IMG/VR virus record: IMGVR_UViG_3300031612_000034
Coordinates: 1-34,303 of that record
Length of the DNA stretch: 34,303 nucleotides
Direction: 5' to 3' (one strand)
Source of the DNA: a virus
In this document: positions 2,738-28,252 of the stretch, in pieces
How positions within the stretch are numbered: position 1 is the stretch's first letter
How the letters are laid out: every line of letters begins with the position of its first letter
The notes under the pieces: model-generated
Database searches by the model: none
Told to the model about the DNA's origin: nothing
What the model saw: the letters and a program-made list of their open reading frames with translations, nothing else
Position numbers and translations under genes: made by a program

Positions 2738-3048
2738 TGTCAAGAAATTTAGTCTTACCATTTTTTCCTGTACCCCCAGAAGAGTACCAGCAAGAGTATA
2801 TGGCCGAGATAATGCGGTCATTTACGGTGTATTTGAATCAAATGCAAAATCCAGGTGAGGGAAGAAACACCCGTTTAACTTTAACGGACTTACAAACTGA
2901 TGACCAAGGGTTAGCTCCTGGAGGGTTATTCCAATATAGAGATGTTGCTGGGATGATGGGTAGCGTCAAAATAGCTGTAGCAGATATTTCCAATTTAAGA
3001 GGAAACTCAGTTACAGGAGCAGTAGGAATTGTGACGGTAGTGACATGA
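2737..3048 (+). CDS. Small virion-region protein of unknown function
   Basis: This is a 103-aa protein whose N-terminus (LPFFPVPPEEYQQEYMAEIM) and N-Q-x-x-NPG motif recur in short proteins that follow the gp10-like gene in marine podoviruses. The first 45 residues are probably helical and the C-terminal half is beta/Gly-rich. Its ATG overlaps the stop of the preceding gene by one base, so the two are probably translationally coupled. Its role is unknown; a minor tail or connector component is the likeliest reading. Confidence 0.8.
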   Translation: MSRNLVLPFFPVPPEEYQQEYMAEIMRSFTVYLNQMQNPGEGRNTRLTLTDLQTDDQGLAPGGLFQYRDVAGMMGSVKIAVADISNLRGNSVTGAVGIVTVVT

Positions 3049-3179
3049 TAACGATTAAAGGAATATGTAGGTTGCGATATTGTATAGTTGACTGTATTAT
3101 GTCTATAGCGTCTGTACAGGAGTTAACGCCTCCTGCATGTTTCCCCCAGAAAGACACAGGTGAAAAATGCAAGGCATAG
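3045..3179 (+). CDS. Possible 44-aa Cys-rich small protein
   Basis: An ATG overlapping the upstream stop (ATGA) opens a 44-codon frame with five cysteines (for example RLRYCIVDCIM) and a C-terminal part PPACFPQKDTGEKCKA. It overlaps the next gene by 13 bases. It would fill an otherwise empty 118-base gap in a region where every other junction is tight. No good ribosome-binding site is visible, so translation would depend on coupling. The family was not recognised, and it may be a chance frame. Confidence 0.35.
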   Translation: MITIKGICRLRYCIVDCIMSIASVQELTPPACFPQKDTGEKCKA

Positions 3180-4879
3180 AAACACTAGATTATGAAGTAG
3201 TAGAAACTTCTCCCCTAGAGGGCATCCTTTCAGAAGGCGGAATTGCTCAACACCAACAAGCAGCTGAGATGCTTGCAGAGTTTGGGCGTAATGGTGATAC
3301 TTATGTTGTTCATGCTGCTGAAGGTGAGACAGTAATCCCTTTAGAGGTTTTAGAAAACAACCCTAGACTTAAACGTATGATCTTTACTCAAATGGAAGAA
3401 ATGGGTTTAGAGCCAGAGCGTTATGTTGTTGGTAATGAGTTGAACTCTTTAAACCCTGAAACGGGACAACCTGAATTCTTTTTCAAATTTCTAAAAAAGC
3501 TTGTTAAAAAAGTAGTCAATGTTGTTAAGAAAATAGCCCCCATTGTGTTAGCTATTGCTGCTCCAATCTTACTTCCAGCGATGCCTTTAGCTCTTGCTGC
3601 GGGATTAGGGAGTACCGTAGGTAACTTGATATCTGGTAAAAATTTAGGTGACTCGTTAAAACAAGGTGTTGTGGTAGGTCTTACCGCAGGTGCAGGTAAT
3701 ATGGTTGCAGGAGGCAAGTTTTTAGGCTCTAGTATAGATCCTGGAAATGTAAAAGGTTTACAAGACTTAGGCACTATGTTTACCCCTGATAACCCGTTTA
3801 CTGCGCAACTTAGCACAACTCTTTCTGGTGTATCTGCTGATGTAGCAGCGGCAGGTGGTAAAGTCGGCGGTGGTGTATTTAAGCAAAAAGGCTTTACTGG
3901 TGATATAGATACAAACGCTGCTGGGAAGGTTATAAATTCTACTGATGCAGTTTCTGATGCAGTTACTGAAGGTGCAGTTACTGATGGTTCAGTATTATCA
4001 GATGTAGCTCCTAAAGAAAACGTATTCGATGGTATAAAATCTGCTCTTACCCCTAATGATGGCTACGGCTTTGGCGATTTTTACACTGAGTTTTTAAGTC
4101 CCGGACGAGAAGGTATCTCCGCAGCAAATAAAAAAGGATATATAAAAGATTTAGCAGAGTACACGAAAAAATTCCCAAATGTAGAAGCAGCAGACTATAA
4201 TTCATTCATTGCGGGTCTCGATGCCAAGTACGCTCCAAGTTTATTATCTAAATATGGTCCCGCTACGGCAACAATTCTCGGAACTGGTGTGGCAAGCGAC
4301 GCGGCATTTGGCACAACTTTTATTACTCCCAAAGAAGAAGAAGGAACCGATGTAGCAAGTATGATGGGTGCGGGTCAACGATTGCTTGATGAAAACCCTG
4401 AACAATTCGCTTTTGGTCCTGGATTTTATGGAACTGGAAATGAAGTTTATAACCCTGATTCCGTCATACCGACCTTAATCCAGCCCACCGTTTTTCCCGA
4501 AAATGCAGGAGGTGTAAATGTTGCTTCTGCCCCTATAGCCCCTACAGGAATTCAAACAGTGAATACTCAACTCCCTGGAGCAACAGTTGCTAATCCAAAC
4601 GCAACAAACCAATACGCTGGAATGCTTGGTGGCAATTACTTTGACCAGACGCCCTATACCAATTTATACGAAAATGCTTATGGTGGGCCGATTAGAGCAG
4701 CCTCTGGCGGGGAAATCATGGGTCCTGGAACACCCACCAGTGATTCTATACCCGCAATGTTAAGCGATGGTGAGTTTGTTATGAATGCTAACGCCGTAAG
4801 GGGCGCAGGAGGTGGCGACCGCCAAGAAGGTGCAAAGCGTATGTATGATATGATGCGTTCATTTGAGAGGACAGCATAA
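3167..4879 (+). CDS. Large virion/ejection protein with SDSIPAMLSDGEFVM-type C-terminus
   Basis: This 570-aa protein has three visible parts. Residues 40-95 carry the motif YVVHAAEGETVIPLEVLENNP, a pattern recurring in marine phage tail and internal virion proteins. Residues about 105-165 hold a Lys-rich stretch (LKKLVKKVVNVVKK) followed by a hydrophobic Ala/Pro/Leu segment that could enter a membrane. The last 60 residues hold GPGTPTSDSIPAMLSDGEFVMNA, a motif shared with the C-terminal ends of many tape-measure and virion proteins. A role in DNA ejection or tail-tube formation is inferred. The ATG follows CAGGTGAAAA. Confidence 0.75.
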   Translation: MQGIETLDYEVVETSPLEGILSEGGIAQHQQAAEMLAEFGRNGDTYVVHAAEGETVIPLEVLENNPRLKRMIFTQMEEMGLEPERYVVGNELNSLNPETGQPEFFFKFLKKLVKKVVNVVKKIAPIVLAIAAPILLPAMPLALAAGLGSTVGNLISGKNLGDSLKQGVVVGLTAGAGNMVAGGKFLGSSIDPGNVKGLQDLGTMFTPDNPFTAQLSTTLSGVSADVAAAGGKVGGGVFKQKGFTGDIDTNAAGKVINSTDAVSDAVTEGAVTDGSVLSDVAPKENVFDGIKSALTPNDGYGFGDFYTEFLSPGREGISAANKKGYIKDLAEYTKKFPNVEAADYNSFIAGLDAKYAPSLLSKYGPATATILGTGVASDAAFGTTFITPKEEEGTDVASMMGAGQRLLDENPEQFAFGPGFYGTGNEVYNPDSVIPTLIQPTVFPENAGGVNVASAPIAPTGIQTVNTQLPGATVANPNATNQYAGMLGGNYFDQTPYTNLYENAYGGPIRAASGGEIMGPGTPTSDSIPAMLSDGEFVMNANAVRGAGGGDRQEGAKRMYDMMRSFERTA

Positions 4880-4880
4880 T

Positions 4881-6254
4881 ATGGCTATATCCGAAAATAT
4901 TAATACCCAATTAGAAGACCCCGCTGTTGCTGCTCGAAAACTAGCTGCGATAGATCAAGCAAAAGCCTTAATTGAAAAAGACATAAACATTGCTGCCCCA
5001 ACGTCTACGGGCGAGGGTGCAATGACTTTACAAGCTCAAAATCTTGCACAGGCGGGACTTGGGTCTTTTCAACCTTTTTTACAGTCAGGTTCTGATTTCC
5101 TTACAAATGCTGGACAACAAGCCAATCTTGGGAATCAAATGGCAGCAGGGATCAGCGGTAGCTATAATCCTGCTCAACAAGAAGCAATGCAAGGAACTGC
5201 CCTTGGTGCTCAAATGGGACAACAAGCCTCTGCAGCAGGAATACAAGGAATACAAAATCAGTTAACGGCTAGTAACCCTTACTTAACAGGGGCCGTAGGA
5301 AATGTGAACCAAGCTGCGACTGATGCACAAAGCCAAGCATTGCTTGCACAAGGAATGTTAGACGGTTCTGCAGGACAATACAATCCTAATTCTGCACAGG
5401 CGTACATGAACCCGTATGAAGATGCGGTTGTTCAACGAACTCTTGCTGATATGCAACGTGCAAGTGATATTTCAGGACAAAGCGATGCGGCGGCTGCGAT
5501 CGGTGCTGGAGCTTTTGGAGGTTCTAGGTCAGGTATTGTTCAATCTGAGCGGGGCAGAAACTTATTAGATCAACAAGCTAAAGCCGCTGGAGGCATAAGG
5601 CAACAAGGCTATCAACAAGCTCTCCAACAATCTATGACTGCACAAGAAGCGGCTATGCAAAGACAACAAAAAGCAGCGGGATTAACTGGGCAATTAGGGC
5701 AGCAAGCCTCACAACAAGCAATGCAAGCAGGACAAATTGGTGGTCAGTTAGGCGCTCAGTATGGACAAATGGGCCTCGCAGGTCAGGAAGCTTCTGCTAA
5801 ATTAGGGCTTATGGGTGCTGAAATGCAAGGAGCAGCTTCTGGTCAAATAGGGGATTTAGCTGCACAAAGAGCTCAGTTAGAGCAAGCTTCTGTAGGTCAA
5901 TCCTATGATGCGGCACAAGCAATGGCAGGTTTGGGACAAACGGCTGCGGGTCTAGGGCAGTTAGGCCAACAAATGCAGTATACAGATGTAGATGCTCTTG
6001 CTAAACTTGGGGGCCAAAAGCAGGTTATGGATCAAGCAGCACTAGATCAAAGGTATAACTATGATCTCCAACAAGAGATGCGACCTTACCAAAAATTAGG
6101 CTTCTATAGTGATGTTTTACAAGGAGCGCCATCTAGTCAAATGTCAATCTCACAAAATACTGCCCCTTCTCCTTCTATGTTGAATCAAGTAGTTGGCGCA
6201 GGGATTAGTGGGTTGGGCATTGCAAACGCATCAAGAAACGCAGGAGTAATTTAA
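4881..6254 (+). CDS. Gln/Ala/Gly-rich internal virion protein
   Basis: The ATG at 4881 (MAISENINTQ) is preferred over the TTG 18 bases upstream because it follows the previous stop and a GAGAGGA site. The 457-aa product is extremely rich in Gln, Ala, Gly and Met, with repeated short units such as QQAxQxGQ and LGQQ across residues about 60-400, so it is probably long helices. Such proteins sit between the channel-forming and the giant ejection proteins of marine podoviruses. The function is inferred from context, as no domain was recognised. The last base of its stop overlaps the next ATG. Confidence 0.75.
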   Translation: MAISENINTQLEDPAVAARKLAAIDQAKALIEKDINIAAPTSTGEGAMTLQAQNLAQAGLGSFQPFLQSGSDFLTNAGQQANLGNQMAAGISGSYNPAQQEAMQGTALGAQMGQQASAAGIQGIQNQLTASNPYLTGAVGNVNQAATDAQSQALLAQGMLDGSAGQYNPNSAQAYMNPYEDAVVQRTLADMQRASDISGQSDAAAAIGAGAFGGSRSGIVQSERGRNLLDQQAKAAGGIRQQGYQQALQQSMTAQEAAMQRQQKAAGLTGQLGQQASQQAMQAGQIGGQLGAQYGQMGLAGQEASAKLGLMGAEMQGAASGQIGDLAAQRAQLEQASVGQSYDAAQAMAGLGQTAAGLGQLGQQMQYTDVDALAKLGGQKQVMDQAALDQRYNYDLQQEMRPYQKLGFYSDVLQGAPSSQMSISQNTAPSPSMLNQVVGAGISGLGIANASRNAGVI

Positions 6255-8803
6255 TGGCAGAATTTGCACAACGGCCGATGGTAACTCAAGGGTTGCCACC
6301 TTCTGCACCAGATGCAGTAGGGACAGGCATTACTTCTGGACTTGTACCAGAAAATAACGACCCAATAATTCAGCAGGGGTTGGAGCAGTTTGCTTCTTCT
6401 GTGGAAGGTTTGTACGGAAAACTTGACCAATCAGAAACTTTTGAAGATGTTATAAACTCTATAAGGGGCAACGAGATGCCTAAAGAAGAGCGAGTAGCTG
6501 AACTAGCTGAGATGGTTGGTGAAAAAGATGCAAAGAAAACCCCTGACTCAGTGTTAGCGGTTATGCAACCGTTTTTCCAAATTCTAGAAATGGTACAATC
6601 CCAAGCGAGCGAAGCGGCTCCTGGAGGAATTGCAAATGCTCCAATGGCCGGAGGTGGGCAGCCCAACGTAAATTTTAACCAAGCCTCTCCAATCCAAGCT
6701 CCTGGAACGGAAGAGGCGATGATGCGTATGGCTATGGGTGAAACACCAGTTGGTTTCTCGCATGGTGGTTATCACAGAATTACTCCGGGGATGCCTTCTA
6801 GGATGGACGCTGCGTACCCTAGATATACGTCACCTGATTACGCCAAATTTGTGGCACCTCAAGCTAAGGCTTTTTTGGGAATACAAAAAGAGCTTGGGTA
6901 TGACCAACTCCCTACTGATGTAACTTCAATCATGGAAAACCAAAATAAGTATTTAGACGAGTTTAAAATAGAACCCCGAAGCAAAGAAGAAATCCTAGCT
7001 GAACAGACAGGTTTTTTTGGAAACCAAGACCAAAGAGATATGGAAACACAAGGCTCTTTAGCGTTGGCTAAATTTGGAGCTGGGATTGCTAATACTGGGG
7101 GGTCTTTGTTACAGGCTTTGACAGGCAACACTTCTCAACTCGCGGGTGATCTAAGTAACGTAGCGGCTCAAAAAGCTGCTTTAGATCGTCAACAAAAAGA
7201 GTTTGCATATTCTGTAGCAGCAAAAGAGAAAACAGAAGAGCGGTCAACAAATCTTAGTTTAGCTCTGGATGCGGTGAAAACAGCAGCGGCAAATGGCACC
7301 TCAAATACAGCCCAAACCAATGCCGCTATTAAGATGGCTATGGAATTTGGAATTACCAATGCACAAAAAGCAGCAGATCTTGTTAACAAACAAAAATCGG
7401 AGGGCTTCAACGCCTCGATGCTATTTGCAGGAAAACCTGAAGTAATCTATGGCGGTATAAATCCTGAAACAAATAAGTATGAAAGCTTTAGATCACAAAT
7501 GGGCCGAGAAGGTCAAGGCCCAATGGCTATAGATAAGACTGATCCTTTACAATTAAACGCTCTTCCTCCGTGGGCTAGACCTCAAACTGCGGCTTCTAAT
7601 TTGGCTAATACTCAATCAGGTAAAACTGATTGGTCAAAGGCACAGAAAACCACATTTACTATTCCAAGCAAAACCTCTGGAGATGGTTGGGAGCAAGTTC
7701 AGGGTGTGTTTGTTCCAGACTCGGGTTATTATTTAACACCAGATGGTAATTATACAACAGCGATTAGGCCTCCTCCAGGAAGTATCGTTGGTGAAAAATC
7801 TAGTATAATCACTGTAGGTAAAGCTGATGGTGCAGGTAGAATTCTAACAACTGTAACACCTCCAAACGGAGTATCGTACACTCAATTAACAGCGATAAAG
7901 GCAAGAAACCCTGAAACGGGAGAAATAACCAGCGAGGTTATCCCAATCAGTGCAAGAGCTTACTCTTTAGACCCGTTTACAACAAAAACTAATGAAGAAA
8001 CTGGCGAAAGAGAAATAGTTTCAAACGGTAATCCGTTAGTGTTTGAAAGACCAACTTCTGGGGTAAGACCCATTGATTTAGCCGCTAAAGACATGACTTC
8101 AAGGGCAAGAAGGGTTGTGGCTATCGTCAATACTCTTGATGCAGGAGAAGAACTATTAGGAACCTTAAAAAATGTAATTGGCCCTATCGCTACCCTTAAA
8201 GGTTTTAGCACTAATCGCCTTGCATCTTTCATTCCTGCGGGTCGTATGGCAGATTATTTAACTTGGTTCAAGAGTTCTGAAGGACAAAAAGCTTTATCTT
8301 TGTTTGAAAGAACAGTGCAGAAGTCTGACATCGTTAGTGATCGTTTTGCTATGGGTGAGCAAGCGATTGTAGCAGAAACTGTTCCAAAATTTGAGTTTTC
8401 TAAAAACCCTGACGCAGCTTTGGTTCAGTTCCAAGAATACCTAAGACAAAAACAAAATCAACTATCGAATGAAAGACACAGCTTAGATCCTGACAATGTT
8501 CCGCGGTATGCTTTAGATCGTGTGCCTACAGGGGGTGCAAGAGATCCGTTTATGTTCTTTGACGAAACTCTTCCTGCAGGAGCCACTTCACACTTTGATT
8601 ACTTAACTAAAATAGCAAGTGATAACACGATGCCCGCTGATCTAACTGGTGTTTTTGTTAATATAACAGGAGCCCAGCTTGAATACATTATGCGAGACAA
8701 CACACAAGAGGGCAAAGAATCACTTTACCTAAATTCAGATGGGTCGTTAAAAGAAAACATTCTTGTAGATGCATCAAGAATGATACAGTTGACAGGACAA
8801 TAA
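6254..8803 (+). CDS. Giant internal virion / ejection protein (849 aa)
   Basis: This 849-aa protein has an N-terminal low-complexity region (to about residue 190), a helical Ala/Gln-rich middle (about 265-380) containing FGAGIANTGGSLLQALTG, a beta-rich section (about 455-590), and a helical C-terminal part with LVQFQEYLRQKQNQL. No lysozyme or transglycosylase motif was seen. Size, position and composition match the large internal proteins released with the DNA by podoviruses. An AGGAG site lies seven bases before the ATG. The name is inferred from context. Confidence 0.75.
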   Translation: MAEFAQRPMVTQGLPPSAPDAVGTGITSGLVPENNDPIIQQGLEQFASSVEGLYGKLDQSETFEDVINSIRGNEMPKEERVAELAEMVGEKDAKKTPDSVLAVMQPFFQILEMVQSQASEAAPGGIANAPMAGGGQPNVNFNQASPIQAPGTEEAMMRMAMGETPVGFSHGGYHRITPGMPSRMDAAYPRYTSPDYAKFVAPQAKAFLGIQKELGYDQLPTDVTSIMENQNKYLDEFKIEPRSKEEILAEQTGFFGNQDQRDMETQGSLALAKFGAGIANTGGSLLQALTGNTSQLAGDLSNVAAQKAALDRQQKEFAYSVAAKEKTEERSTNLSLALDAVKTAAANGTSNTAQTNAAIKMAMEFGITNAQKAADLVNKQKSEGFNASMLFAGKPEVIYGGINPETNKYESFRSQMGREGQGPMAIDKTDPLQLNALPPWARPQTAASNLANTQSGKTDWSKAQKTTFTIPSKTSGDGWEQVQGVFVPDSGYYLTPDGNYTTAIRPPPGSIVGEKSSIITVGKADGAGRILTTVTPPNGVSYTQLTAIKARNPETGEITSEVIPISARAYSLDPFTTKTNEETGEREIVSNGNPLVFERPTSGVRPIDLAAKDMTSRARRVVAIVNTLDAGEELLGTLKNVIGPIATLKGFSTNRLASFIPAGRMADYLTWFKSSEGQKALSLFERTVQKSDIVSDRFAMGEQAIVAETVPKFEFSKNPDAALVQFQEYLRQKQNQLSNERHSLDPDNVPRYALDRVPTGGARDPFMFFDETLPAGATSHFDYLTKIASDNTMPADLTGVFVNITGAQLEYIMRDNTQEGKESLYLNSDGSLKENILVDASRMIQLTGQ

Positions 8804-8804
8804 T

Positions 8805-11800
8805 ATGGCTGGATTAACAGAAGAAGACATCAAAAATCTTGGGGCTTTAAGTAAACCTCCAACAGTAAATGTAAACGATTTAGTACCAAACCCCGATATT
8901 AAAATGGACAAGGTTGAAACACTCGAGGGAACAATTAAAAAAGAACCAAGTCGGATCACTGGTAAATTAGAACCTGGATATGGTGCAGACGTTGTAAGTA
9001 GCCAAGATAGTTTTGCCGAAAAAGCGTTCGCAGCGGGTGCGACTTATTCAAACGATGCTGTTGGGCCATTGTTTAAAGGATTCAACAGGGCGGTTGCTTT
9101 TTTACCTGATGCCGTATTGAACGCCATCACTACAGGATTTAACCTTGCAACAGGATCAGAAATAGATAAGGATATTTTACTTAGGATTTTTAATTCAAAC
9201 GATTTTGAATCTCAAAAAGTGTTGATTCCGTATGTTTTGAATTACGGCACCGATGGTTATGTGGGCCGATCTGACTCAGATAGTGCTTTTACACGATATT
9301 CAGGTGCAGTGGGTGAAGGGTTAGGCATGGCTGTCCCTGTTGCAACGGCCTCTACGTTGTACGCTAAAACTGCTCAGGCATTGCCCACGGTAGGGAAGTT
9401 TGCTCAAAATACAGGGATAGGAACTGGAATATTAAATACTCTTACAAAACCTTTTGTAAAAACTCCTGTACTCGCTACCACTCTTGAAGGGGGTTTAAGT
9501 GCTGTTTCTGCTGTAGGGGTGCAAGCAGAAGAAGACATATTTGGAACAAAAACAGGTCTAGGTGGCTTATTACCTTTCGGTGGTCCTGCTATTTATTACG
9601 CTGTAAAATCGGGTGTTGTTACTCCCATAAGTTGGGTAGGCAAGAAAGTTTTCACCAAAGGCGCGGATACTCTTGATAATTTAAGAGTAGAAGCAGGGAC
9701 GGTTGACCCTAAATCTGGCAAACGTGGAGATGAAGCTAAAGTTATAGTAGATAAACAACTTCAAGATGCAGCATTGGGTAATGAAGAGAAAATAGCTCGA
9801 GCTATAGAAATAGAAACAGCATTGCAGCCTTTTGCACAAGAACGAATCGTGTTTAGTCCTGCAGAGACTACTTTAGATGCCCCTACTTTAAAGACACAAG
9901 CAGGTATTGAACAAACAGCTACGCCTGAGTTTACAAGGAAAAACTTGGCAAGGAAAGAAAACATTTTAAATTCAATTTCTAACTTTATTTCTGCTAAGTT
10001 CACAGGAAACGCTATAGATGATGCCCCTTTAATGGTGTTTGATGCTGCTAAAAATAAATACACCCTAACAGTCGGGCGAATAAATGCAGGAGAGAAAGAA
10101 CTCTCAACCAAGATTTCAATTTTAGCGAACTCGGATACGGGTGTTTATCCCACAATAAATAGTAAAACAGATGCAGGACAAGAAATCAGACAGGTTGTAT
10201 CTCTTGCCCATGCACAAGCTAAATCAAATGCAGAAGCGTTAGCTAACAATTTAAACATAAACAAAGCTGACCAAGTGGCTAGTATGGATTCTCTTGACGC
10301 AGCTAAAACGGCTGTTCGCGAAGCGGTGACTTCAAGAGAAGGAACCGAAGCGTTCAGTTATGCGGGTTTAAATAAAACTGTAAAAGGATTTATTGAAAGC
10401 GACAAAACAAAGATAACTTTCCAAGATTGGAAAATGTTTAGAGATCAAGTAAGTTCTCAAATAGGGAAAGCTTTTGCAACGAATAACAAGTCAGATCAAA
10501 GAAGTTTAGCTATTCTTGGAAAAACATTAGACGATATGGGTGAAGCGTTTGGAAGAACAAATGTAAAGTTTAAAGAATTCCAAAATTATTATGATCAAAA
10601 TGTTATCCGACCTTTTGAAACTAGTCAGGTAGTAAAAATTCTAGCTAAAGGTAGGGGTGGAGCTAAAGACAGGGATGTTTATTATTTGGCCGATGAACAA
10701 GTAGCAGGAGCTTTTTTGAAAGATAGCAACACTGCGAGACAGTTCATGACTTTATTTGGAGACAACCCTAAACAGTTGGAAAACATAAAGGCTTCTGTTT
10801 TAGATGCGATTAGAACAATAGGCGTTGTAAGTGGGGAGTTTAAACCCAACGCGATAAATAAATATATGAACACAAACAGAGAAGTTTTAACTGAGCTAGG
10901 TTTGTACAGCGATCTTATTAACACACAAAGTTTAATCAAGCAGGTGACTGCAAGACAGGCTTCCTTAGAAACAAGAAGAAAGATAATAAATCAAAATTCT
11001 ATGTATTCTGCTGTGGCTCGAGCCATGAAAGTAGAAAACCCTGAAAAACTTATTGATGATTTATTAAAGAGTCCTAAACTAGCTCGTGAAGTTTCAACAA
11101 AATTAGGTCGGGATCCAGAGGTACTAGAAGCATTTAGAGCAGCAGTAATGCAAAAAGCACTAGGTAAAGACCCTAATGCTTTAGTTGACCCATACGCTTT
11201 TAAGAAGTTTCTTGTAGAAAACCATCGAGCATTAGACAACGTGTTTGATAAATCTCATATAGATAATATGTATCTTATCGCGGATGCTGCTGAACGGGCT
11301 TTTGCTACCCCGATAGTAGCAGGAAAAGGTTTAACCTCTGAAGATGTTATGTCTAGGTTTGCAGCAAAATTTGGCGCAACAGTCCCAGGATCAACAACCC
11401 GTTTCATTGCGTTAAACGAGGGGCGTATAGGTCCAAAAGCAGTGGGTGCCTATTTCTTAGCAAGGGGATTATCTGCAAGATCAGCAGCAAGAGCCGATGC
11501 TTTGTTTAAGGAAATGATGTTTGACCCAGATGTAGCCAAAGCCTTAGTGAAAAAGGGTCCAGAAAACTTTAGTATTACCCCAGAAAGTAACAGACAGATT
11601 AACTCTATTTTGTTTAACATGGGCGTTCTTCCTACAGTGCGGGAAAAAACAGGGGAATCAAGTCCTGCAGAAGATTTCCAAATAGAATTTCCTAAAGCTT
11701 TTGAGTTGCCTGATGACAATACGCAGGGTTCTGTTTCTCCTGAAATACTTTCAACCCCAACAGAGACAACACAGTTTGCTGCTGCGAGTAATCCAGCTCC

Positions 11801-11927
11801 CCCACCTGTGGCGAGCCAAGAACAGAAGCAAACTGCCTCAGCAAGTGATCTCTTTCCTTTTGATCCAACGCTTGCTGCTATAGAAAAAAGACAGAATGCC
11901 AAGCAAGGCATAATGTCTGTAACCTGA
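8805..11927 (+). CDS. Giant internal virion / ejection protein (1040 aa)
   Basis: At 1040 aa this is the largest gene here. Residues about 75-160 contain an amphipathic, Gly/Ala/Phe-rich region (FKGFNRAVAFLPDAVLNAITTG) typical of membrane-interacting segments in internal virion proteins. The middle (about 330-800) is mostly long helices rich in Lys, Glu and Ala, and the last 90 residues are Pro/Ser/Thr/Gln-rich and probably disordered. No enzymatic motif was recognised. It is the last long gene of the structural block, which suits the core protein that follows the DNA during ejection. Confidence 0.75.
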   Translation: MAGLTEEDIKNLGALSKPPTVNVNDLVPNPDIKMDKVETLEGTIKKEPSRITGKLEPGYGADVVSSQDSFAEKAFAAGATYSNDAVGPLFKGFNRAVAFLPDAVLNAITTGFNLATGSEIDKDILLRIFNSNDFESQKVLIPYVLNYGTDGYVGRSDSDSAFTRYSGAVGEGLGMAVPVATASTLYAKTAQALPTVGKFAQNTGIGTGILNTLTKPFVKTPVLATTLEGGLSAVSAVGVQAEEDIFGTKTGLGGLLPFGGPAIYYAVKSGVVTPISWVGKKVFTKGADTLDNLRVEAGTVDPKSGKRGDEAKVIVDKQLQDAALGNEEKIARAIEIETALQPFAQERIVFSPAETTLDAPTLKTQAGIEQTATPEFTRKNLARKENILNSISNFISAKFTGNAIDDAPLMVFDAAKNKYTLTVGRINAGEKELSTKISILANSDTGVYPTINSKTDAGQEIRQVVSLAHAQAKSNAEALANNLNINKADQVASMDSLDAAKTAVREAVTSREGTEAFSYAGLNKTVKGFIESDKTKITFQDWKMFRDQVSSQIGKAFATNNKSDQRSLAILGKTLDDMGEAFGRTNVKFKEFQNYYDQNVIRPFETSQVVKILAKGRGGAKDRDVYYLADEQVAGAFLKDSNTARQFMTLFGDNPKQLENIKASVLDAIRTIGVVSGEFKPNAINKYMNTNREVLTELGLYSDLINTQSLIKQVTARQASLETRRKIINQNSMYSAVARAMKVENPEKLIDDLLKSPKLAREVSTKLGRDPEVLEAFRAAVMQKALGKDPNALVDPYAFKKFLVENHRALDNVFDKSHIDNMYLIADAAERAFATPIVAGKGLTSEDVMSRFAAKFGATVPGSTTRFIALNEGRIGPKAVGAYFLARGLSARSAARADALFKEMMFDPDVAKALVKKGPENFSITPESNRQINSILFNMGVLPTVREKTGESSPAEDFQIEFPKAFELPDDNTQGSVSPEILSTPTETTQFAAASNPAPPPVASQEQKQTASASDLFPFDPTLAAIEKRQNAKQGIMSVT

Positions 11928-21393: not shown

Positions 21394-22305
21394 ATGGATA
21401 CCGAAGCTGTAGAAAGTTACTTTGGTTGGATAAATGAAAGACATTCTATTTACCAACGCAGGGTCGCAAACGAAAACCCCCCGTGGACGGAAGATAGAAT
21501 TCTTCAGGATTACAAGTTTACAAACCCTTTTCGTGAAAACGATAAAGTAACCGTGTGGATGCGTGAGAACTGGACTAAACCAAACCACAACCGTCCACAC
21601 GGTGAAATTATCTTTAACTGTTGCTTGTTTCGCATGATAGGAACAAGCGAGTTTGCTGATGCTCATAAGTGGGTTTATGAAGACTACGGTTGGGATAAAG
21701 ACAGGACCAAAGAATTAATACAAGACAGGCTTTCAAAAGGTTTACGAACCTTTACAGGAGCCTACATAATTACTAATCAAGGATTAAAAGCACCTAAATC
21801 CGAGGTAGTAGTTGACCATTTTCTTACGCCCGTTTGGGAAAACAAAGACGCGCTTTCCGAGGTGGCAACCAAAACTGCATCCCTCCAAGAAGTACACTCA
21901 GCGTTGGGTGCCTATAAAGGATGGGGCGGGGGAGGTTTTATGTCATACGAGGTGGTTACGGACCTCAACTACACACCTGCATTGGACTTCGCGAAAGATA
22001 AGTTTACATGGGCGAACGCGGGTCCTGGAGCCAAGCGAGGATTAAACCGTATACACCTGCGTGATTTGAAAAAGGGTATGAACCAAGAAACAGCCAACAC
22101 CGAAATGCAGCTCTTGTTAGGAGCTTCTTTAATATATTGTAAATCCCATGTGCCTGTGGATCGTGTAGATATGCGTACCATTGAGCATAGCTTATGCGAG
22201 TGGGATAAATACGAGCGGGTACGTTTAGGACAAGGTACCCCAAGAAGCAGATATAAAGCCGACATACTATCCAATGACAACTTTAAGAAAGGAACTGTAG
22301 AATGA
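21394..22305 (+). CDS. 5-hmdU DNA kinase helical-domain (base hypermodification) protein
   Basis: This 303-aa protein begins YFGWINERHSIYQRRVANENPPWTEDRILQDYKFTNPFRENDKVT, the conserved start of the 5-hydroxymethyl-dU DNA kinase helical domain (HMUDK_hel), which is related to the alpha-glutamyl/putrescinyl-thymine pyrophosphorylases of phages with hypermodified thymine. The family's second signature, GxGGFMSYEVVTDLNYT, is at about residues 170-190. No Walker A motif is visible, so this is the helical part alone; its exact reaction (kinase partner or pyrophosphate-displacing transferase) is open. GAGGAG precedes the ATG. It overlaps the glycosyltransferase start (ATGA). Confidence 0.85.
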   Translation: MDTEAVESYFGWINERHSIYQRRVANENPPWTEDRILQDYKFTNPFRENDKVTVWMRENWTKPNHNRPHGEIIFNCCLFRMIGTSEFADAHKWVYEDYGWDKDRTKELIQDRLSKGLRTFTGAYIITNQGLKAPKSEVVVDHFLTPVWENKDALSEVATKTASLQEVHSALGAYKGWGGGGFMSYEVVTDLNYTPALDFAKDKFTWANAGPGAKRGLNRIHLRDLKKGMNQETANTEMQLLLGASLIYCKSHVPVDRVDMRTIEHSLCEWDKYERVRLGQGTPRSRYKADILSNDNFKKGTVE

Positions 22306-23654
22306 AGTTCTTAATGACGCTATTCCAAATACAGGATTATGGCGGGATAATCAACCATGCGGAGTACTTGACTAAAGGGCTAAAAGAGCTCGGGCATGAA
22401 GTAGACTTCCGTATTCTAGTTCCCAAAAGTGCTGTGTCTAACAAACAGCTTATGCGAGGCAGAAGTAATCATGAAGGTTACAAATCGTTAGAAGGTGGGA
22501 CAGGGTATATGTTCCATCAAGCAAGAGGCTGGAAAGGTGTTCCTAAAGTCCCCTATGTTAGTAAACAAGCAAGACAACAGTTTAAAGAAGACTGTAGTAA
22601 ATACGATGCTGTTCTCTGGCACATCCCTGTACCAACCCTTAACAAAGACAACGCTGGAATTAAGGAATGGCTAGAACTATATGACCACGGCAGTAAAAAC
22701 ATAGCCATCATACACGACGGTAATCTGCCCAAGCTGTACCCACATTTAATCTCTGTTTCAAAGCATTTTCATGCTGCGGTCTGTGTTCACGAGAGTGCCT
22801 ATAACTCAGCTGAGTACTTAAACATCCCACGCAAGTTAATCCTTAATCCTTTTGATATACACGGGGAGTTAGGGCCAGAGTTTAGTAAGCGTGATGGGCT
22901 TATGGCTGTGCAGGTATTTAAAGCATGGAAACGTGTGGATACGTTAATTCGTGCCATACCCCATGTGAGGCCTTACGCTGATATGTTTGTGGGGGGAGCA
23001 GGAATAGAATACCGTTACATGACAAGCAAAGAAAAGTGTAAGCCCCAATACTTTGATGCTTATGGCAATCGCATCTGGGAAGTAGCATTAAAACATGGGA
23101 TGCAGTATTTAGGCGTGTTAGAAAATGAAACTGTTTTAGATTTGTTGAAAAAAGTAAAGCTGCAAATAGATCCTAGCTTTTCTAAAAAGTATTCTGGATA
23201 TGGAGCGCACTTTAATCGCACAACCATAGAAGCTATGATTAATGGTGCTGTCCCAATGGCTACTGATCTAGGTATGAAAGATAGCCAAATATTTAAATCG
23301 GGTAAGAACTTCATAGAAATACCACATACTGCTACACCTGAAGAGTTTGGCGACATAATTAACGACAGCCTAATAAACAAAGCTCAATGGGACACTATTA
23401 GGGACAACAATATATCCCTGCTGTATAAGTTTGATAAACGAAATGTAGCACAAGAATATGTTGATCTGGTGACACAGCCCACGCATTTTCTTGAAAAAGG
23501 TAGACCTGAAAACAATATTAGTTTCATCGAAAGTTGTAACAAGAACTTAAAGTTTTTTGGTTTGCCCGAGCTCTCCACGCTGGTCGAGGACCCCTTGTTG
23601 GCAATAATGGGGGCAACACCAGCCAATAACAACAACAACAGTCGAGGAGGCTAA
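22302..23654 (+). CDS. GT4-like glycosyltransferase in the modification cassette
   Basis: This 450-aa protein has a GT-B-like layout. The N-terminal half starts KFLMTLFQIQDYGGIINHAEYLTKGLKELGHEVDF, with the glycine-rich loop and helix typical of GT4 enzymes. The C-terminal half has VGGAG, QYLGVLENETVLDLLKKVKLQIDPS, and the donor-site segment TTIEAMINGAVPMATDLG. Family members move a sugar from a nucleotide donor to an acceptor. Its place between two thymine-modification genes with overlapping stops suggests a hydroxymethylated or phosphorylated base as acceptor; a capsid or host-surface target cannot be excluded. The Asn-rich last 10 residues are probably disordered. Confidence 0.82.
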   Translation: MKFLMTLFQIQDYGGIINHAEYLTKGLKELGHEVDFRILVPKSAVSNKQLMRGRSNHEGYKSLEGGTGYMFHQARGWKGVPKVPYVSKQARQQFKEDCSKYDAVLWHIPVPTLNKDNAGIKEWLELYDHGSKNIAIIHDGNLPKLYPHLISVSKHFHAAVCVHESAYNSAEYLNIPRKLILNPFDIHGELGPEFSKRDGLMAVQVFKAWKRVDTLIRAIPHVRPYADMFVGGAGIEYRYMTSKEKCKPQYFDAYGNRIWEVALKHGMQYLGVLENETVLDLLKKVKLQIDPSFSKKYSGYGAHFNRTTIEAMINGAVPMATDLGMKDSQIFKSGKNFIEIPHTATPEEFGDIINDSLINKAQWDTIRDNNISLLYKFDKRNVAQEYVDLVTQPTHFLEKGRPENNISFIESCNKNLKFFGLPELSTLVEDPLLAIMGATPANNNNNSRGG

Positions 23655-23655
23655 T

Positions 23656-24699
23656 ATGCGGTCTTTATACGTTCGTAACGTAAGCGAAGCACTATTCGTA
23701 GGCAAACAAGCTTTGCAGAGTGAAGGCAAAGAAGTACAGACTCGCAATGGCCTCGCCCTAGAGTTTGCTACTCCTGTCGCAACAACCTACTACAACCCCA
23801 GAGAAAGAGTAATGTTCTTTCCTGAACGTGACGCCAACCCCTATTTCCACTTCATGGAATCTTTATGGATGTTGGCAGGGCGTAATGATGTAGAATGGAT
23901 CAGCCAGTTCAATGGCAGGATAAACACCTACAGCGATGACGGTGAGTATTTCCATGGAGCATACGGTTTTAGATGGCGTCAGTGGTTTGGTGAAGACCAA
24001 CTACTAACCGCTATTCATAGGTTGAAGAATTATCCTAATGATAGACGAACAGTTATTGGGATGTGGGATCCATGGGAAGATTTGCAACAAGATAACGATG
24101 GTAAAGATTACCCCTGCAATACACAGATATACTTTTGGGCGCGTGAGAACAAACTAAACATGACCGTAGCCAACCGTAGCAATGATATGGTTTGGGGAGC
24201 CTACGGAGCTAATGCTGTGCATATGTCCTTCTTGTTAGAATACATGGCAGGGATGTGTGGGTTTGAGGTGGGTGAGTACAACCAGTTCAGTAACAATCTA
24301 CACGCATATGTTGATGTGCTAAGTAGCTTAGACAATATACGGCCCGACCATGAGCCTTACCTTACCATTGCCGAAGATGGTTTAAGCTATGTTTCTCCTT
24401 TTCTTATAGACAACCCTGCTACTTTTGATAACGACCTCAGCCTATGGTTTAAAACGTGGGGTGGCGATAATAGTGCTACAAAAACAGAGATGTTTTATAA
24501 CCCTCACGTCCAAGACACAGGGGCAGTTAACGATTACCTTAACACGACAGCAACCCCCATGATTAAATCTTGGAAGGCGTGGAAAAATAAAGGCACGAGC
24601 ACTATGTACATGAAAGATGCCATTATGGAGGCAACAGCAATTAACGACGCAGCATGGCGTAAGGCTTGCCTTGAATGGCTTGAAAGGAGGAATAAATAA
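23656..24699 (+). CDS. Thymidylate synthase-like dUMP/dCMP hydroxymethylase
   Basis: This 347-aa protein has the thymidylate synthase fold. Visible motifs are HFMESLWMLAGRND (residues 65-78), RRT (130-132), the nucleophilic cysteine C154 in DYPCNTQIYF, and MTVANRSNDMVWGAYGANAVHMSFLLEYMAGM (about 169-200), the counterpart of RSxD-xxLGxPFNI. PCN and the WGAYGAN variant are the pattern of phage deoxynucleotide hydroxymethylases, rather than PCH and LGxPFN of housekeeping synthases. It would add a hydroxymethyl group from methylene-tetrahydrofolate to C5. dUMP is the likely substrate because of the 5-hmdU-type neighbour. GAGGAGG precedes the ATG. Confidence 0.85.
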   Translation: MRSLYVRNVSEALFVGKQALQSEGKEVQTRNGLALEFATPVATTYYNPRERVMFFPERDANPYFHFMESLWMLAGRNDVEWISQFNGRINTYSDDGEYFHGAYGFRWRQWFGEDQLLTAIHRLKNYPNDRRTVIGMWDPWEDLQQDNDGKDYPCNTQIYFWARENKLNMTVANRSNDMVWGAYGANAVHMSFLLEYMAGMCGFEVGEYNQFSNNLHAYVDVLSSLDNIRPDHEPYLTIAEDGLSYVSPFLIDNPATFDNDLSLWFKTWGGDNSATKTEMFYNPHVQDTGAVNDYLNTTATPMIKSWKAWKNKGTSTMYMKDAIMEATAINDAAWRKACLEWLERRNK

Positions 24700-25112
24700 T
24701 GGATCACATTGAAAAGCAAAACAGGTTGGATTCTAAAGCAAAACAAAAAAGCACTAGCTCAAGCTATAGCGAAATGATTACAATCGTAGAAGAAGTAGCA
24801 CAAACAGATGTTCTATCACTACACAAGGCAGAGCAGAGTTACGGAAACAGCTGGAAACAAAGAGGTGGCGTAGGTGCATTTATGATGCTTGCCCGAAAGT
24901 GGGATAGGCTTGAAAAGCAAGTAAACGAAAGCAACCACGACATTTTCCAAGCTGCTGAAAAAGACAATCGACCTGAAGGCATACTTGATGATATCCAAGA
25001 TTTACGCAGGTATCTTATGCTAGTCGAAGCAGAACTTATTCGGAAGGAACCAACGAATGACCCAGACCCCGACCTCTTCCTCGAAGAGCGATGTGAATGG
25101 AAAACTGGATGA
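24699..25112 (+). CDS. MazG-like / DUF1599-like nucleotide pyrophosphohydrolase candidate
   Basis: This 137-aa all-helical protein contains SYGNSWKQRGGVGAFMMLARKWDRLE (about residues 47-72) and ILDDIQDLRRYLMLVEAEL (about 94-112). Together they resemble the YG-x-SW...K-x-x-R...D-x-x-DL-x-x-Y layout of DUF1599, a nucleotide-modification-associated branch of the MazG-like superfamily. Such enzymes hydrolyse unwanted dNTPs; here it could remove unmodified dTTP or dUTP. That role is inferred from the cassette. AAAGGAGG precedes the ATG, which overlaps the upstream stop (TAATG). Confidence 0.65.
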   Translation: MDHIEKQNRLDSKAKQKSTSSSYSEMITIVEEVAQTDVLSLHKAEQSYGNSWKQRGGVGAFMMLARKWDRLEKQVNESNHDIFQAAEKDNRPEGILDDIQDLRRYLMLVEAELIRKEPTNDPDPDLFLEERCEWKTG

Positions 25113-25257
25113 AGTGTGTGTTGCTGTTTGTGAGTGTGGGGTTACAAAAGAGGTAACTTTCCGCAATCTGAAGAACAAGTGGGCAAGATGTCATAAATGC
25201 AACCAACCGATGAGAGTGAAAAGCAATGCAGTTTCCTTTATTTCAACCCCCGACTGA
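25057..25257 (+). CDS. Zinc-ribbon mini-protein overlapping its neighbours
   Basis: This 66-aa frame has an AAGGA site eight bases before the ATG. It contains two metal-binding pairs, CEC (about residues 25-27) and CHKC (about 45-48), as expected for a zinc ribbon. It overlaps the preceding gene by 56 bases and the polymerase gene by 32. Retention of the Cys pairs in a frame so heavily overlapped favours real coding. It could be a small nucleic-acid-binding or protein-contact factor for the polymerase; this is inference. Confidence 0.6.
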   Translation: MTQTPTSSSKSDVNGKLDEVCVAVCECGVTKEVTFRNLKNKWARCHKCNQPMRVKSNAVSFISTPD

Positions 25258-27142
25258 GTGGGTTATGCCAGATGGTTTCCCTGATATTAGCTATGCAAGA
25301 GAAGTAGCTATAGATTTAGAAACACGAGACCCTAACCTTACAACAATGGGGTCAGGGTGGGCTAGAAAAGATGGGCATATAATCGGTATCGCCGTAGCAG
25401 TAGAAGGCGATCAATGGTATTTCCCTATACGGCATGAAATCGGCCCAAATCTTGATATCAAAACAACAATGAGGTGGTTACAAGATGTTGTTTCAAAAGA
25501 CCGTGATTATATCTTCCATAATGCTCCTTATGATGTTGGGTGGATGCTCGCAGAAGGTGTGTCTGTCAAAGGGCGAATCGTGGATACAATGGTCGTTGCA
25601 CCACTGTTAGATGAAAATCGGTTTAGTTATGCTTTGAATGCTATTGGTAGGGATTACCTGCAAGAGCGCAAGTCAGAAAAAGAACTACGAGAAGCAGCAG
25701 AGGCCTTCGGTGTTAATGCTAAAAGCGAGATGTACAAACTCCCTGCGGCTTATGTGGGGGCTTATGCAGAACAAGATGCTGCCCTGACATTACGGCTGTG
25801 GACTTTCTTTAAAGGATTAATAATTAAAGAAGACATCGGTGATATTTTCGACCTTGAATTAAAGGTGCTGAAAACTATTATCCCTATGCGCGAAAAGGGA
25901 GTGCGTGTGGATTTAGAAAAAGCTGAGCGCATTAAAATTGATTTAGAGCAGCGTGAAAAGAAGTTACTTGCTGAGATTAAACGGCAATCAGGTATCTCGG
26001 TAGAGCTATGGGCTGCTGAAAGTGTATCCAAAGCTTTTGACGCATTAGACTTGCAGTACAACAAAACAGAAAAGACAGGAGCGCCTAGCTTCACCAAAGG
26101 ATTCTTAGCCAACCACCCACACCAAGTGCCGAAAATGATTGTAGAGGCCCGTGAGTTCAATAAAGCAAGAACTACTTTTGTAGATGCAATACTAAAACAT
26201 CAGGTGAACGGGCGCATCCATGCAGAACTTCATCCTCTGCGCTCTGACGTTGGCGGTACAGTGACGGGTAGATTTAGTTACAGCAATCCCAATTTGCAAC
26301 AGATTCCTGCACGGCATGGCGAAATAGGCCCAATGATACGCAGCTTATTTATACCAGAAGAAGGCACGTTATGGGGCGCTTTCGACTACTCTAGCCAAGA
26401 ACCACGCATTGTTGTACATTACAGCAAGCTCATGGGTTTCAGAGGGGCTTCTGACTTTGCTGAACAGTATAGTGTAGACGCACGAACAGACTTCCACCAA
26501 ATGGCTGCTGATATTGTGGGTGTGCCTCGCAAACAAGCTAAAGATATCAACCTCGGTTTGTTTTATGGCATGGGTTCTAAGAAGTTGGCGGCAAGTCTAG
26601 GGTTGGAGTTTGAAGATGCCAAGGAACTGTTTGCTGAGTACCATGACAAAGTACCATTCGTACGAGAATTAAGCGACTATGCTATAAACCGAGCAAGCCG
26701 CAAAGGTGTGATTCGTACTGTCTTAGGCCGACGCTGTAGGTTTGACAAATGGGAGCCGAACAAGTATGGTAGCTGGAAACCCATGACATACCAAGAAGCT
26801 TATGCCGAGCATGGCCCTGCGATTAAACGAGCGTTTACTTACAAGGCTCTTAATAAACTAATTCAAGGAAGTGCTGCCGATCAAACTAAAGCCGCGATGG
26901 TTGCTTTAGCTAATGAAGGTATACTTCCCATGATTCAAGTACACGATGAACTAGACGTCTCCGTAGAAAGTGAAGACCAAGCTAAAATGATTACGGAGAT
27001 AATGCAAGATTGCGTCAAACTAGAAGTACCCTCCGTAGTCGACGCAGAGTTTGGACCAAATTGGGGGGAAGCGAAACAAACATTTACGGAGAAACCATGG
27101 ACACGCGGATTAAAACACAACCACAGCGAAATGCAAACCTAA
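25226..27142 (+). CDS. polA: Family A DNA polymerase with 3'-5' exonuclease (Leu762 type)
   Basis: The 638-aa product has a proofreading domain with ExoI DLETRD (D30, E32), ExoII HNAPYD (98-103) and ExoIII YAEQDA (D184). Polymerase motif A is FDYSSQEPR (D387), motif B RKQAKDINLGLFYG (435-448) and motif C VHDE (H573-E575). No 5'-3' exonuclease domain is present, as usual for phage enzymes. Leu443 occupies the place of E. coli Phe762, a substitution known to be common in marine virioplankton polymerases. It replicates the phage genome and must accept any modified thymidine triphosphate made by the cassette. Confidence 0.95.
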   Translation: MQFPLFQPPTEWVMPDGFPDISYAREVAIDLETRDPNLTTMGSGWARKDGHIIGIAVAVEGDQWYFPIRHEIGPNLDIKTTMRWLQDVVSKDRDYIFHNAPYDVGWMLAEGVSVKGRIVDTMVVAPLLDENRFSYALNAIGRDYLQERKSEKELREAAEAFGVNAKSEMYKLPAAYVGAYAEQDAALTLRLWTFFKGLIIKEDIGDIFDLELKVLKTIIPMREKGVRVDLEKAERIKIDLEQREKKLLAEIKRQSGISVELWAAESVSKAFDALDLQYNKTEKTGAPSFTKGFLANHPHQVPKMIVEAREFNKARTTFVDAILKHQVNGRIHAELHPLRSDVGGTVTGRFSYSNPNLQQIPARHGEIGPMIRSLFIPEEGTLWGAFDYSSQEPRIVVHYSKLMGFRGASDFAEQYSVDARTDFHQMAADIVGVPRKQAKDINLGLFYGMGSKKLAASLGLEFEDAKELFAEYHDKVPFVRELSDYAINRASRKGVIRTVLGRRCRFDKWEPNKYGSWKPMTYQEAYAEHGPAIKRAFTYKALNKLIQGSAADQTKAAMVALANEGILPMIQVHDELDVSVESEDQAKMITEIMQDCVKLEVPSVVDAEFGPNWGEAKQTFTEKPWTRGLKHNHSEMQT

Positions 27143-27660
27143 GTCTGCTTCATGCACGACTAAAAGGAGGCCACGTTGTTCGGTATCATACAAAGCCCGA
27201 ATTAGGGGATGGACAGAATGTAGCTGCCCATACTTGGAGAGCTGTGGTGATATTGCAAACGCTTTACCCTGAGGCAAGCAAGAACTGCATCTTGCATTTG
27301 TTGTATCACGATGTTGCCGAGGCAGAAGTAGGGGATGTCCCTGCCACAACCAAGTGGGGCTATCCTGAAATAAATAAGCTGATGGTAAAAGCCGAAAAAG
27401 CTTATGAGCTATCTATTGGCGTAGGCGAAATAGTACACCCTATCACTGAAGAAGACAAGAAAATGTGTGATATTGTGGACAAATTAGAGCTGGTGCTGCA
27501 TTGTTATCGTTTAATGCTGCAAGGAAACAGTATGGCCGAGGAAGTATTTTTGCGTGGGATAGATTATTTAAACAAAAAGTACAAAAAGGAATTGATTTTT
27601 GAACCTGCTTCTGAGATAATAACAACTCTGTGTCTAGCAAATGACACCCGTAAACTTTAG
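27097..27660 (+). CDS. HD-domain deoxynucleotidase (YfbR-like)
   Basis: The ATG at 27097 follows GGAG by five bases and is preferred over an ATG 87 bases upstream that lies deep inside the polymerase. The 187-aa protein has the HD signature in order: AAHTWRAV (H45), LLYHDVAEAEVGDVP (H71, D72) and CDIVDKLEL (D127). YfbR-type enzymes remove the 5'-phosphate from deoxynucleoside monophosphates. Next to the hydroxymethylase it could shape the dUMP, dTMP or 5-hm-dUMP pools; this is inference. It overlaps the polymerase by 46 bases. Confidence 0.85.
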   Translation: MDTRIKTQPQRNANLSLLHARLKGGHVVRYHTKPELGDGQNVAAHTWRAVVILQTLYPEASKNCILHLLYHDVAEAEVGDVPATTKWGYPEINKLMVKAEKAYELSIGVGEIVHPITEEDKKMCDIVDKLELVLHCYRLMLQGNSMAEEVFLRGIDYLNKKYKKELIFEPASEIITTLCLANDTRKL

Positions 27661-27668
27661 GAGCTCAA

Positions 27669-27824
27669 ATGTTAGTCCAACAGGTAATAAATGTAAAGGT
27701 AACTTTTGAGGAGCTTATGATTATTAGACAAGCAGTTATGTCTACTTGTGCTCATGAAGCTCGGCAAGCAGAGGTTATTTATCGGCTTTGCGAAAGATTA
27801 AATACTCTATTGGAGGATAGATAA
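27669..27824 (+). CDS. 51-aa helical small protein
   Basis: An AGGAG site, partly formed by the previous stop codon (TAGGAG), leads after five bases to ATG. The frame encodes MLVQQVINVKVTFEELMIIRQ followed by a second helix (EVIYRLCERLNTLLEDR). The stop overlaps the start of the cytidylyltransferase (TAATG), so translation is coupled. Small two-helix phage proteins with a V-T-x-E-E-L turn are frequent, and the function is unknown. Tight packing supports real coding. Confidence 0.65.
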   Translation: MLVQQVINVKVTFEELMIIRQAVMSTCAHEARQAEVIYRLCERLNTLLEDR

Positions 27825-28252
27825 TGATTGTTGGATTCACTTGCGGAGCTTTTGACTTGTTACACGTAGGTCATGTATTGATGTTACAAGAAGCAAGCGA
27901 AGTGTGCGATTATTTGATCGTAGGGTTGCATATAGACCCCAGTACCGAACGGGAGTTTAAAAACAAACCAGTGCAATCTATCCACGAACGGTTCATACAG
28001 TTAGAAGCGATAAAGTATGTAGACTTTGTTCTCCCTTACCACACCGAAGAAGATATGCACATCTTACTGAAGATATTAAGAGTAAATGTCCGTATTGTAG
28101 GGGAAGAGTACAGAAACAAGTCATTAAGCGGGGAGCAAATCCACCACGACTTAGGGATCATGTTGCACTACAATACCCGTGGACATCAGTTCTCCTCGAC
28201 CGAATTGCGAGACCGAGTAAAAAGAGCAAATAAAAAAAGTCAAATGAATTAA
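27824..28252 (+). CDS. Glycerol-3-phosphate-cytidylyltransferase-like nucleotidyltransferase
   Basis: The 142-aa protein contains GAFDLLHVGHVLML (HVGH at residues 14-17), the nucleotide-binding HxGH motif, and FSSTELRDRV near residue 123, equivalent to the ISTS-type second motif. The length fits TagD-like cytidylyltransferases, which couple CTP and a phosphorylated alcohol to a CDP-derivative. A phage function is not obvious; it could supply an activated group for base modification or alter a host polymer. GGAGG precedes the ATG. Confidence 0.85.
   Translation: MIVGFTCGAFDLLHVGHVLMLQEASEVCDYLIVGLHIDPSTEREFKNKPVQSIHERFIQLEAIKYVDFVLPYHTEEDMHILLKILRVNVRIVGEEYRNKSLSGEQIHHDLGIMLHYNTRGHQFSSTELRDRVKRANKKSQMN

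Follow-up and report, generated by a model that had tools for sequence, protein, structure and literature searches.

A candidate DNA 5-hydroxymethyluracil glycosyltransferase in an exchangeable slot of a phage hypermodification cluster

A glycosyltransferase (GT) gene placed between two genes of DNA base modification raises the question of whether the enzyme acts on DNA or on a surface polymer. Such a gene occurs in the IMG/VR virus record IMGVR_UViG_3300031612_000034, which was analysed over its whole length of 34,303 bases (the window). It is an ATG-initiated open reading frame (ORF) at 22302-23654 on the plus strand and encodes a GT4-like enzyme of 450 amino acids with a GT-B fold. A preliminary description, made from the sequence alone, had judged DNA the more likely acceptor. 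Comparison with related phages supports this view, through the context of the gene and its exchange with TAGT and kinase genes, and we consider it likely that the GT caps 5-hydroxymethyldeoxyuridine (5-hmdU) in phage DNA from an exchangeable slot of a hypermodification cluster.

The GT gene is tightly packed between its neighbours, as had been described. Its start codon overlaps the stop codon of the upstream gene (21394-22305, plus strand) as ATGA (22302-22305), and translation of the two genes is probably coupled. The GT stop codon, TAA, occupies 23652-23654, and a thymidylate synthase (TS)-like ORF, the presumed hydroxymethylase gene (23656-24699, plus strand), begins after a spacer of one base; its likely Shine-Dalgarno sequence, GAGGAGG (23644-23650, plus strand), lies within the 3' end of the GT gene. 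The upstream gene encodes a 303-amino-acid homologue of Pseudomonas phage M6 gp055 and YuA gp14, identified by Pfam (PF18723, 1.1e-52), PHROGs (phrog_2396) and tblastn. The PF18723 match spans nearly the whole gene, and only this helical domain was matched; the P-loop kinase domain (PF18748) was not found in it. The earlier name, HMUDK-like, therefore fits the helical domain and not a kinase, and we use HMUDK helical-domain protein (HMUDK_hel) instead. The GT ORF is under purifying selection, with a nonsynonymous divergence (dN) of 0.106 versus a synonymous divergence (dS) of 1.4 between the window and its relative L001; selection is strong in close pairs, one of which gave nonsynonymous and synonymous differences (pN and pS) of 0.005 and 0.046.

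The TS-like protein probably supplies the base to be modified. Pfam and PHROGs both name it thymidylate synthase, as they would if it were an ordinary TS and the genes beside it had unrelated functions, a possibility that we regard as barely credible. NCBIfam thymidylate synthase models scored far below their cut-offs, and the catalytic Cys154 is followed by Asn155, at a position where E. coli TS has His. Across 99% of its length the protein shares 42% identity with its M6 counterpart, and it also resembles the dUMP hydroxymethylase of Lydia over its full length; it travels with PF18723 nearly always. The Lydia gene, from a relative of M6, has been named deoxyuridylate hydroxymethyltransferase (PMC11946847), and the M6 DNA modification, 5-NedU, derives from 5-hmdU (PMC6449724). 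Asn186, the uracil-type residue at the discriminating position, is kept in the window protein, is invariant in 11 homologues of the window type and is also found in M6, whereas the T4 dCMP hydroxymethylase (gp42) has Asp there. Taken with the Cys-Asn pair and the likeness to M6 and Lydia, this residue indicates that the base is most likely uracil and the enzyme a probable dUMP 5-hydroxymethylase. The core order PF18723 ... TS is common to the window and the M6/Yuavirus cluster (kinase gp054, PF18723 gp055, TS-like gp058), and PF18723 genes of Yuavirus relatives are about one-third identical to that of the window. The clusters differ in what accompanies this core: M6 has a 5-hmdU DNA kinase (gp054, 7.7e-18, just before the PF18723 gene; product 5-NedU) and no GT, while relatives that bear the GT have no detected kinase.

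A search with the TS-like protein yielded 102 unique TS loci with sufficient upstream sequence, and HMUDK_hel accompanied TS in nearly all of them; in relatives that keep the genes for primase, helicase, DUF932, HMUDK_hel, TS and PolA, one slot, between HMUDK_hel and TS, was variable. Exactly one cap gene was present in 101 of the 102 loci: the GT in 60, TAGT in 21, a 340-amino-acid protein, GTB340, in 11, a kinase in five and a 338-amino-acid protein, S338, in four. One locus had none, and two cap genes never occurred together. The exclusion extended to whole contigs, since among 34 records of 50-76 kb the GT never occurred with TAGT or kinase, and records with TAGT or kinase lacked the GT. 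Neither PF18748 nor TAGT (PF20691) was detected in 20 large GT contigs; M6 and Sonora served as positive controls for PF18748, although a divergent, remote kinase could escape this search, as the P-loop 5-hmdU kinase in the L093 slot gave only a weak match below the cut-off. The TAGT genes of the slot matched PF20691 with E-values down to 3.6e-22 and phrog_842, 'beta-glucosyl-HMC-alpha-glucosyltransferase', at 3e-47. The T6 enzyme of that name belongs to the same family; TAGT is a recognised family of DNA glycosyltransferases and has been linked to glycosylation of T6 DNA (PMC13390438, PMC13216743). TAGT belongs to the GT-A fold superfamily (PMC13216743), in contrast to the GT-B enzyme of the window, which has no match to PF20691. 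There is a T-even precedent for such an arrangement, TAGT and beta-GT occupying syntenic positions (PMC13390438).

GTB340 is a distant homologue of the window GT (hhalign, 7e-8). Neither GTB340 (L055:8893-9915 and relatives) nor S338 (L075:8969-9985 and relatives) has a Pfam or PHROG match, and no relationship between the two was found; S338 is possibly a DNA-modifying enzyme of a new kind. Accessory genes in the slots of relatives encode radical SAM/SPASM proteins and FkbM methyltransferases. The radical SAM/SPASM gene, commonly beside TAGT (L074:8832-9866 and relatives), suggests that the glycosylated base is modified further there.

Exchange of the slot gene has been frequent and, in places, recent. 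On a quick tree of PolA (98 rows), the slot gene changed at least 18 times. L049 and L053 share 96.6% DNA identity up to the stop codon of HMUDK_hel, and their identity is 91.8% again downstream, starting with the final 18 bases of the GT; between these flanks, L049:8669-9943 and L053:8950-9921 carry different slot genes with dissimilar DNA. L007 and L063 show the same replacement of one slot. In both pairs, near-identical genomes differ almost only in the slot (one or two ORFs), and these are recent exchanges.

For an independent view of the GT, homologues were collected by searches with the GT alone, which found relatives in viral contigs and in three contigs of metagenome-assembled genomes (MAGs); 58 were left after removal of near-copies. 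Two caveats apply: TS-linked members were abundant in the profiles behind the later searches, and one search kept the best 80 of 151 matches. Relatives of the GT were found almost only in phage contigs. The order HMUDK_hel-GT-TS is that of the window and of most relatives, and 52 of the 58 homologues lie within 400 bp of a TS-like, HMUDK_hel or TET/JBP gene. It is also possible that the GT is an operon passenger that modifies a host surface polysaccharide, a virion protein or a small molecule, in which case its homologues might be expected mostly in polysaccharide or virion clusters lacking modification genes. Instead, a TS-like gene, a TET/JBP gene or both accompanied 56 of the 58, at the locus itself except in L041, where the distance along the contig is about 10 kb. 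A few contexts do fit a passenger: the L041 homologue (L041:10001-11323, in a 114.6-kb phage contig) adjoins a radical SAM gene and has GT9-like and PfkB kinase genes near it, and the L257 homologue is near B12 radical SAM genes. The solved folds closest to the GT also belong to GT4 enzymes of lipid, polysaccharide and low-molecular-weight thiol pathways. We nevertheless consider a passenger very unlikely, because association with TS/HMUDK_hel or TET recurs in several lineages of phage and in different gene orders, the slot gene is replaced by TAGT or a 5-hmdU kinase, and no polysaccharide genes were recognised near the window GT.

The TET-linked homologues are informative about the acceptor. 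A GT clade of three (support 100/100) lacks TS and HMUDK_hel and adjoins a Tet_JBP dioxygenase gene; such GTs occur in two phage types, one of them T4-like, and the GT lies beside Tet_JBP genes in L265-L267, L269-L271, L273, L276, L278 and L279. The likeness of the window to phage clusters of TET/JBP with GT lies in this clade of its GT family; none of the screened window genes matched Tet_JBP, and the window phage itself appears to use the TS route. Because TET/JBP enzymes bear no relation to the TS-like hydroxymethylases and match them only in their class of product, this independent context points to a hydroxymethylpyrimidine acceptor. No C5-methyltransferase was found in the TET-linked contigs checked, which are possibly incomplete. 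TET may accordingly act on thymine, as in base J synthesis, and not on 5-methylcytosine, but base J chemistry in these phages is suggestive only.

Structure prediction placed the GT in the GT-B class, again as had been described. Sequence matches were marginal, with Pfam families Glycos_transf_1 (1.9e-5) and Glyco_trans_1_4 (2e-4) both below curated cut-offs (for Glycos_transf_1, PF00534, 24.7 bits against a gathering score of 26.4). An AlphaFold model from 59 diverse homologues reached a pLDDT of 91 and a pTM of 0.89; it replaced an earlier model from eight close homologues (pLDDT 51), which was discarded. In a Foldseek search of the PDB, GT4-type enzymes ranked first (HepE, BshA, PimA and others, E-values of 1e-13 to 1e-12), and these CAZy GT4/Glycos_transf_1 enzymes are also the marginal profile matches. 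Retaining enzymes predominate among the nearest solved structures. The best 50 matches also included T4 DNA alpha-glucosyltransferase, solved with bound DNA, which had the highest TMq listed (0.57-0.60). The preliminary description had set T4-type beta-glucosyltransferases (beta-GT) apart as a different lineage; beta-GT was indeed absent from the best 50 structural matches, but the separation does not carry over to the T4 alpha-glucosyltransferase (alpha-GT). The latter was matched by fold only, neither T4 enzyme being among the PDB profile hits. Alpha-GT (GT72; 1y8z, with hydroxymethyluracil DNA) is like the window enzyme a GT-B protein and acts on hydroxymethylpyrimidine DNA. It differs in having no detectable sequence similarity to the window GT and in its base, 5-hydroxymethyldeoxycytidine (5-hmdC) from an Asp-type dCMP hydroxymethylase.

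Two motifs mark the family. In HDGN (residues 138-141; 22713-22724, plus strand), Asp139 and Gly140 are invariant in the 59 sequences, and His138 and Asn141 are present in 58. In G-A-H-F-N-R (residues 301-306; 23202-23219, plus strand), G301, H303, N305 and R306 are invariant and Ala302 stands where the GT4 motif EX7E has its first Glu; the window GT lacks this motif (Ala302...Glu310), and its catalytic site is unusual in this respect.

Glycosylation at a second step was also considered, in which 5-hmdU would first be altered by HMUDK_hel or some other enzyme, and the new group would then receive a sugar from the GT, as in the secondary glucosylation of dihydroxypentyluracil in Bacillus phage SP-15. 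The SP-15 glycosyltransferase was the second-best match of the GT in a search of viral models, and the hypermodified thymine of this phage bears glucose (PMC5977210); the sugar that TAGT adds in T6 is likely a second one (PMC13390438); and the near-constant presence of HMUDK_hel with TS would be explained. On the other hand, the surroundings of the window GT showed no recognisable kinase, pyridoxal phosphate (PLP) enzyme or amino-acid transferase. The GT occurs without HMUDK_hel in the TET-linked phages, L247 and L041, and the HMUDK_hel product is therefore not needed there. Mutual exclusion of GT and kinase, moreover, fits competition for one hydroxyl. A second step is, on balance, improbable, and direct capping of 5-hmdU is favoured.

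Several observations weigh against direct capping of DNA by the GT. The GT4 enzymes and T4 alpha-GT give overlapping TM-scores, and fold alone does not specify a DNA acceptor. The first Glu of EX7E is replaced in all TS-linked GTs, and Glu is found at residue 302 in just three of the 59 sequences, the TET-linked ones. The median pI of the family is 7.3 (window, 8.7), which does not support a strongly basic DNA-binding signature, and the GT has no close characterised homologue. Linkage is also imperfect. In L032 and L033, HMUDK_hel and TS have stayed together but the GT has moved upstream by about 6 kb, and neither TS nor TET was present in the DNA searched around L257 and the interrupted copy L200. 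The TS-like genes of the L247 and L041 contigs lie farther from the GT. The frame of the L200 homologue (L200:8001-9249) is interrupted in a Pseudomonadales MAG chromosome, and it is probably a decayed phage remnant.

In the proposed pathway, the TS-like enzyme would make 5-hydroxymethyl-dUMP, which would be phosphorylated further and incorporated into phage DNA by polymerase. The GT would then move a sugar from a nucleotide-sugar donor to the 5-hydroxymethyl oxygen of 5-hmdU in replicated DNA, filling the place held in M6 by the 5-hmdU DNA kinase. Exchange of the cap for TAGT, another GT-B enzyme or a kinase in relatives presumably varies the DNA coat against host restriction. A more speculative extension, which we hold with rather low confidence, is that PF18723 is a general base-recognising module that presents 5-hmdU to interchangeable capping enzymes, the GT making directly glycosylated 5-hmdU. 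If this were true, a one-gene swap would change the DNA coat, and glycosylated 5-hmdU would be the phage counterpart of kinetoplastid base J. No fusion of GT and HMUDK_hel was found when looked for.

Glycosylation of DNA bases is known in phages, best from 5-hydroxymethylcytosine in the T-even phages, and clusters that combine GTs with TS-like or TET enzymes are on record. The present family appears to be new, as a sequence-divergent GT-B lineage tied to an M6-like 5-hydroxymethyluracil pathway and not to 5-hmdC, and mutually exclusive with the 5-hmdU kinase. It has no match in PHROGs or, by tblastn, in 50,697 phage records, and repeated searches found it in none of the isolate-phage records. 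Its exclusivity, together with repeated one-gene exchange between near-identical phages, amounts to a natural experiment on changes in DNA chemistry, presumably under host defences, and the slot families offer a panel of enzymes for what would be one substrate, 5-hmdU DNA.

Further genes follow on the plus strand. A 137-amino-acid protein (24699-25112) is conserved 3' of TS, and the family A DNA polymerase that served as backbone marker for the exchange tree lies at 25226-27142. An HD-domain phosphohydrolase (YfbR-like) is encoded at 27010-27660; M6 likewise has an HD gene, directly after TS, and a family A DNA polymerase nearby. At 27824-28252 is a CTP_transf_like nucleotidyltransferase (HldE domain II/TagD-like), which may make the nucleotide-sugar donor of the GT, perhaps with an unusual sugar; in one type of TET-linked phage, a homologue immediately precedes the GT. 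It was rejected as a universal donor maker, being seen in 41 of 136 TS-linked GT loci (redundancy counted). Elsewhere in the window, five large ORFs (463-1040 amino acids; 803-11927) without Pfam match probably encode tail or other structural proteins.
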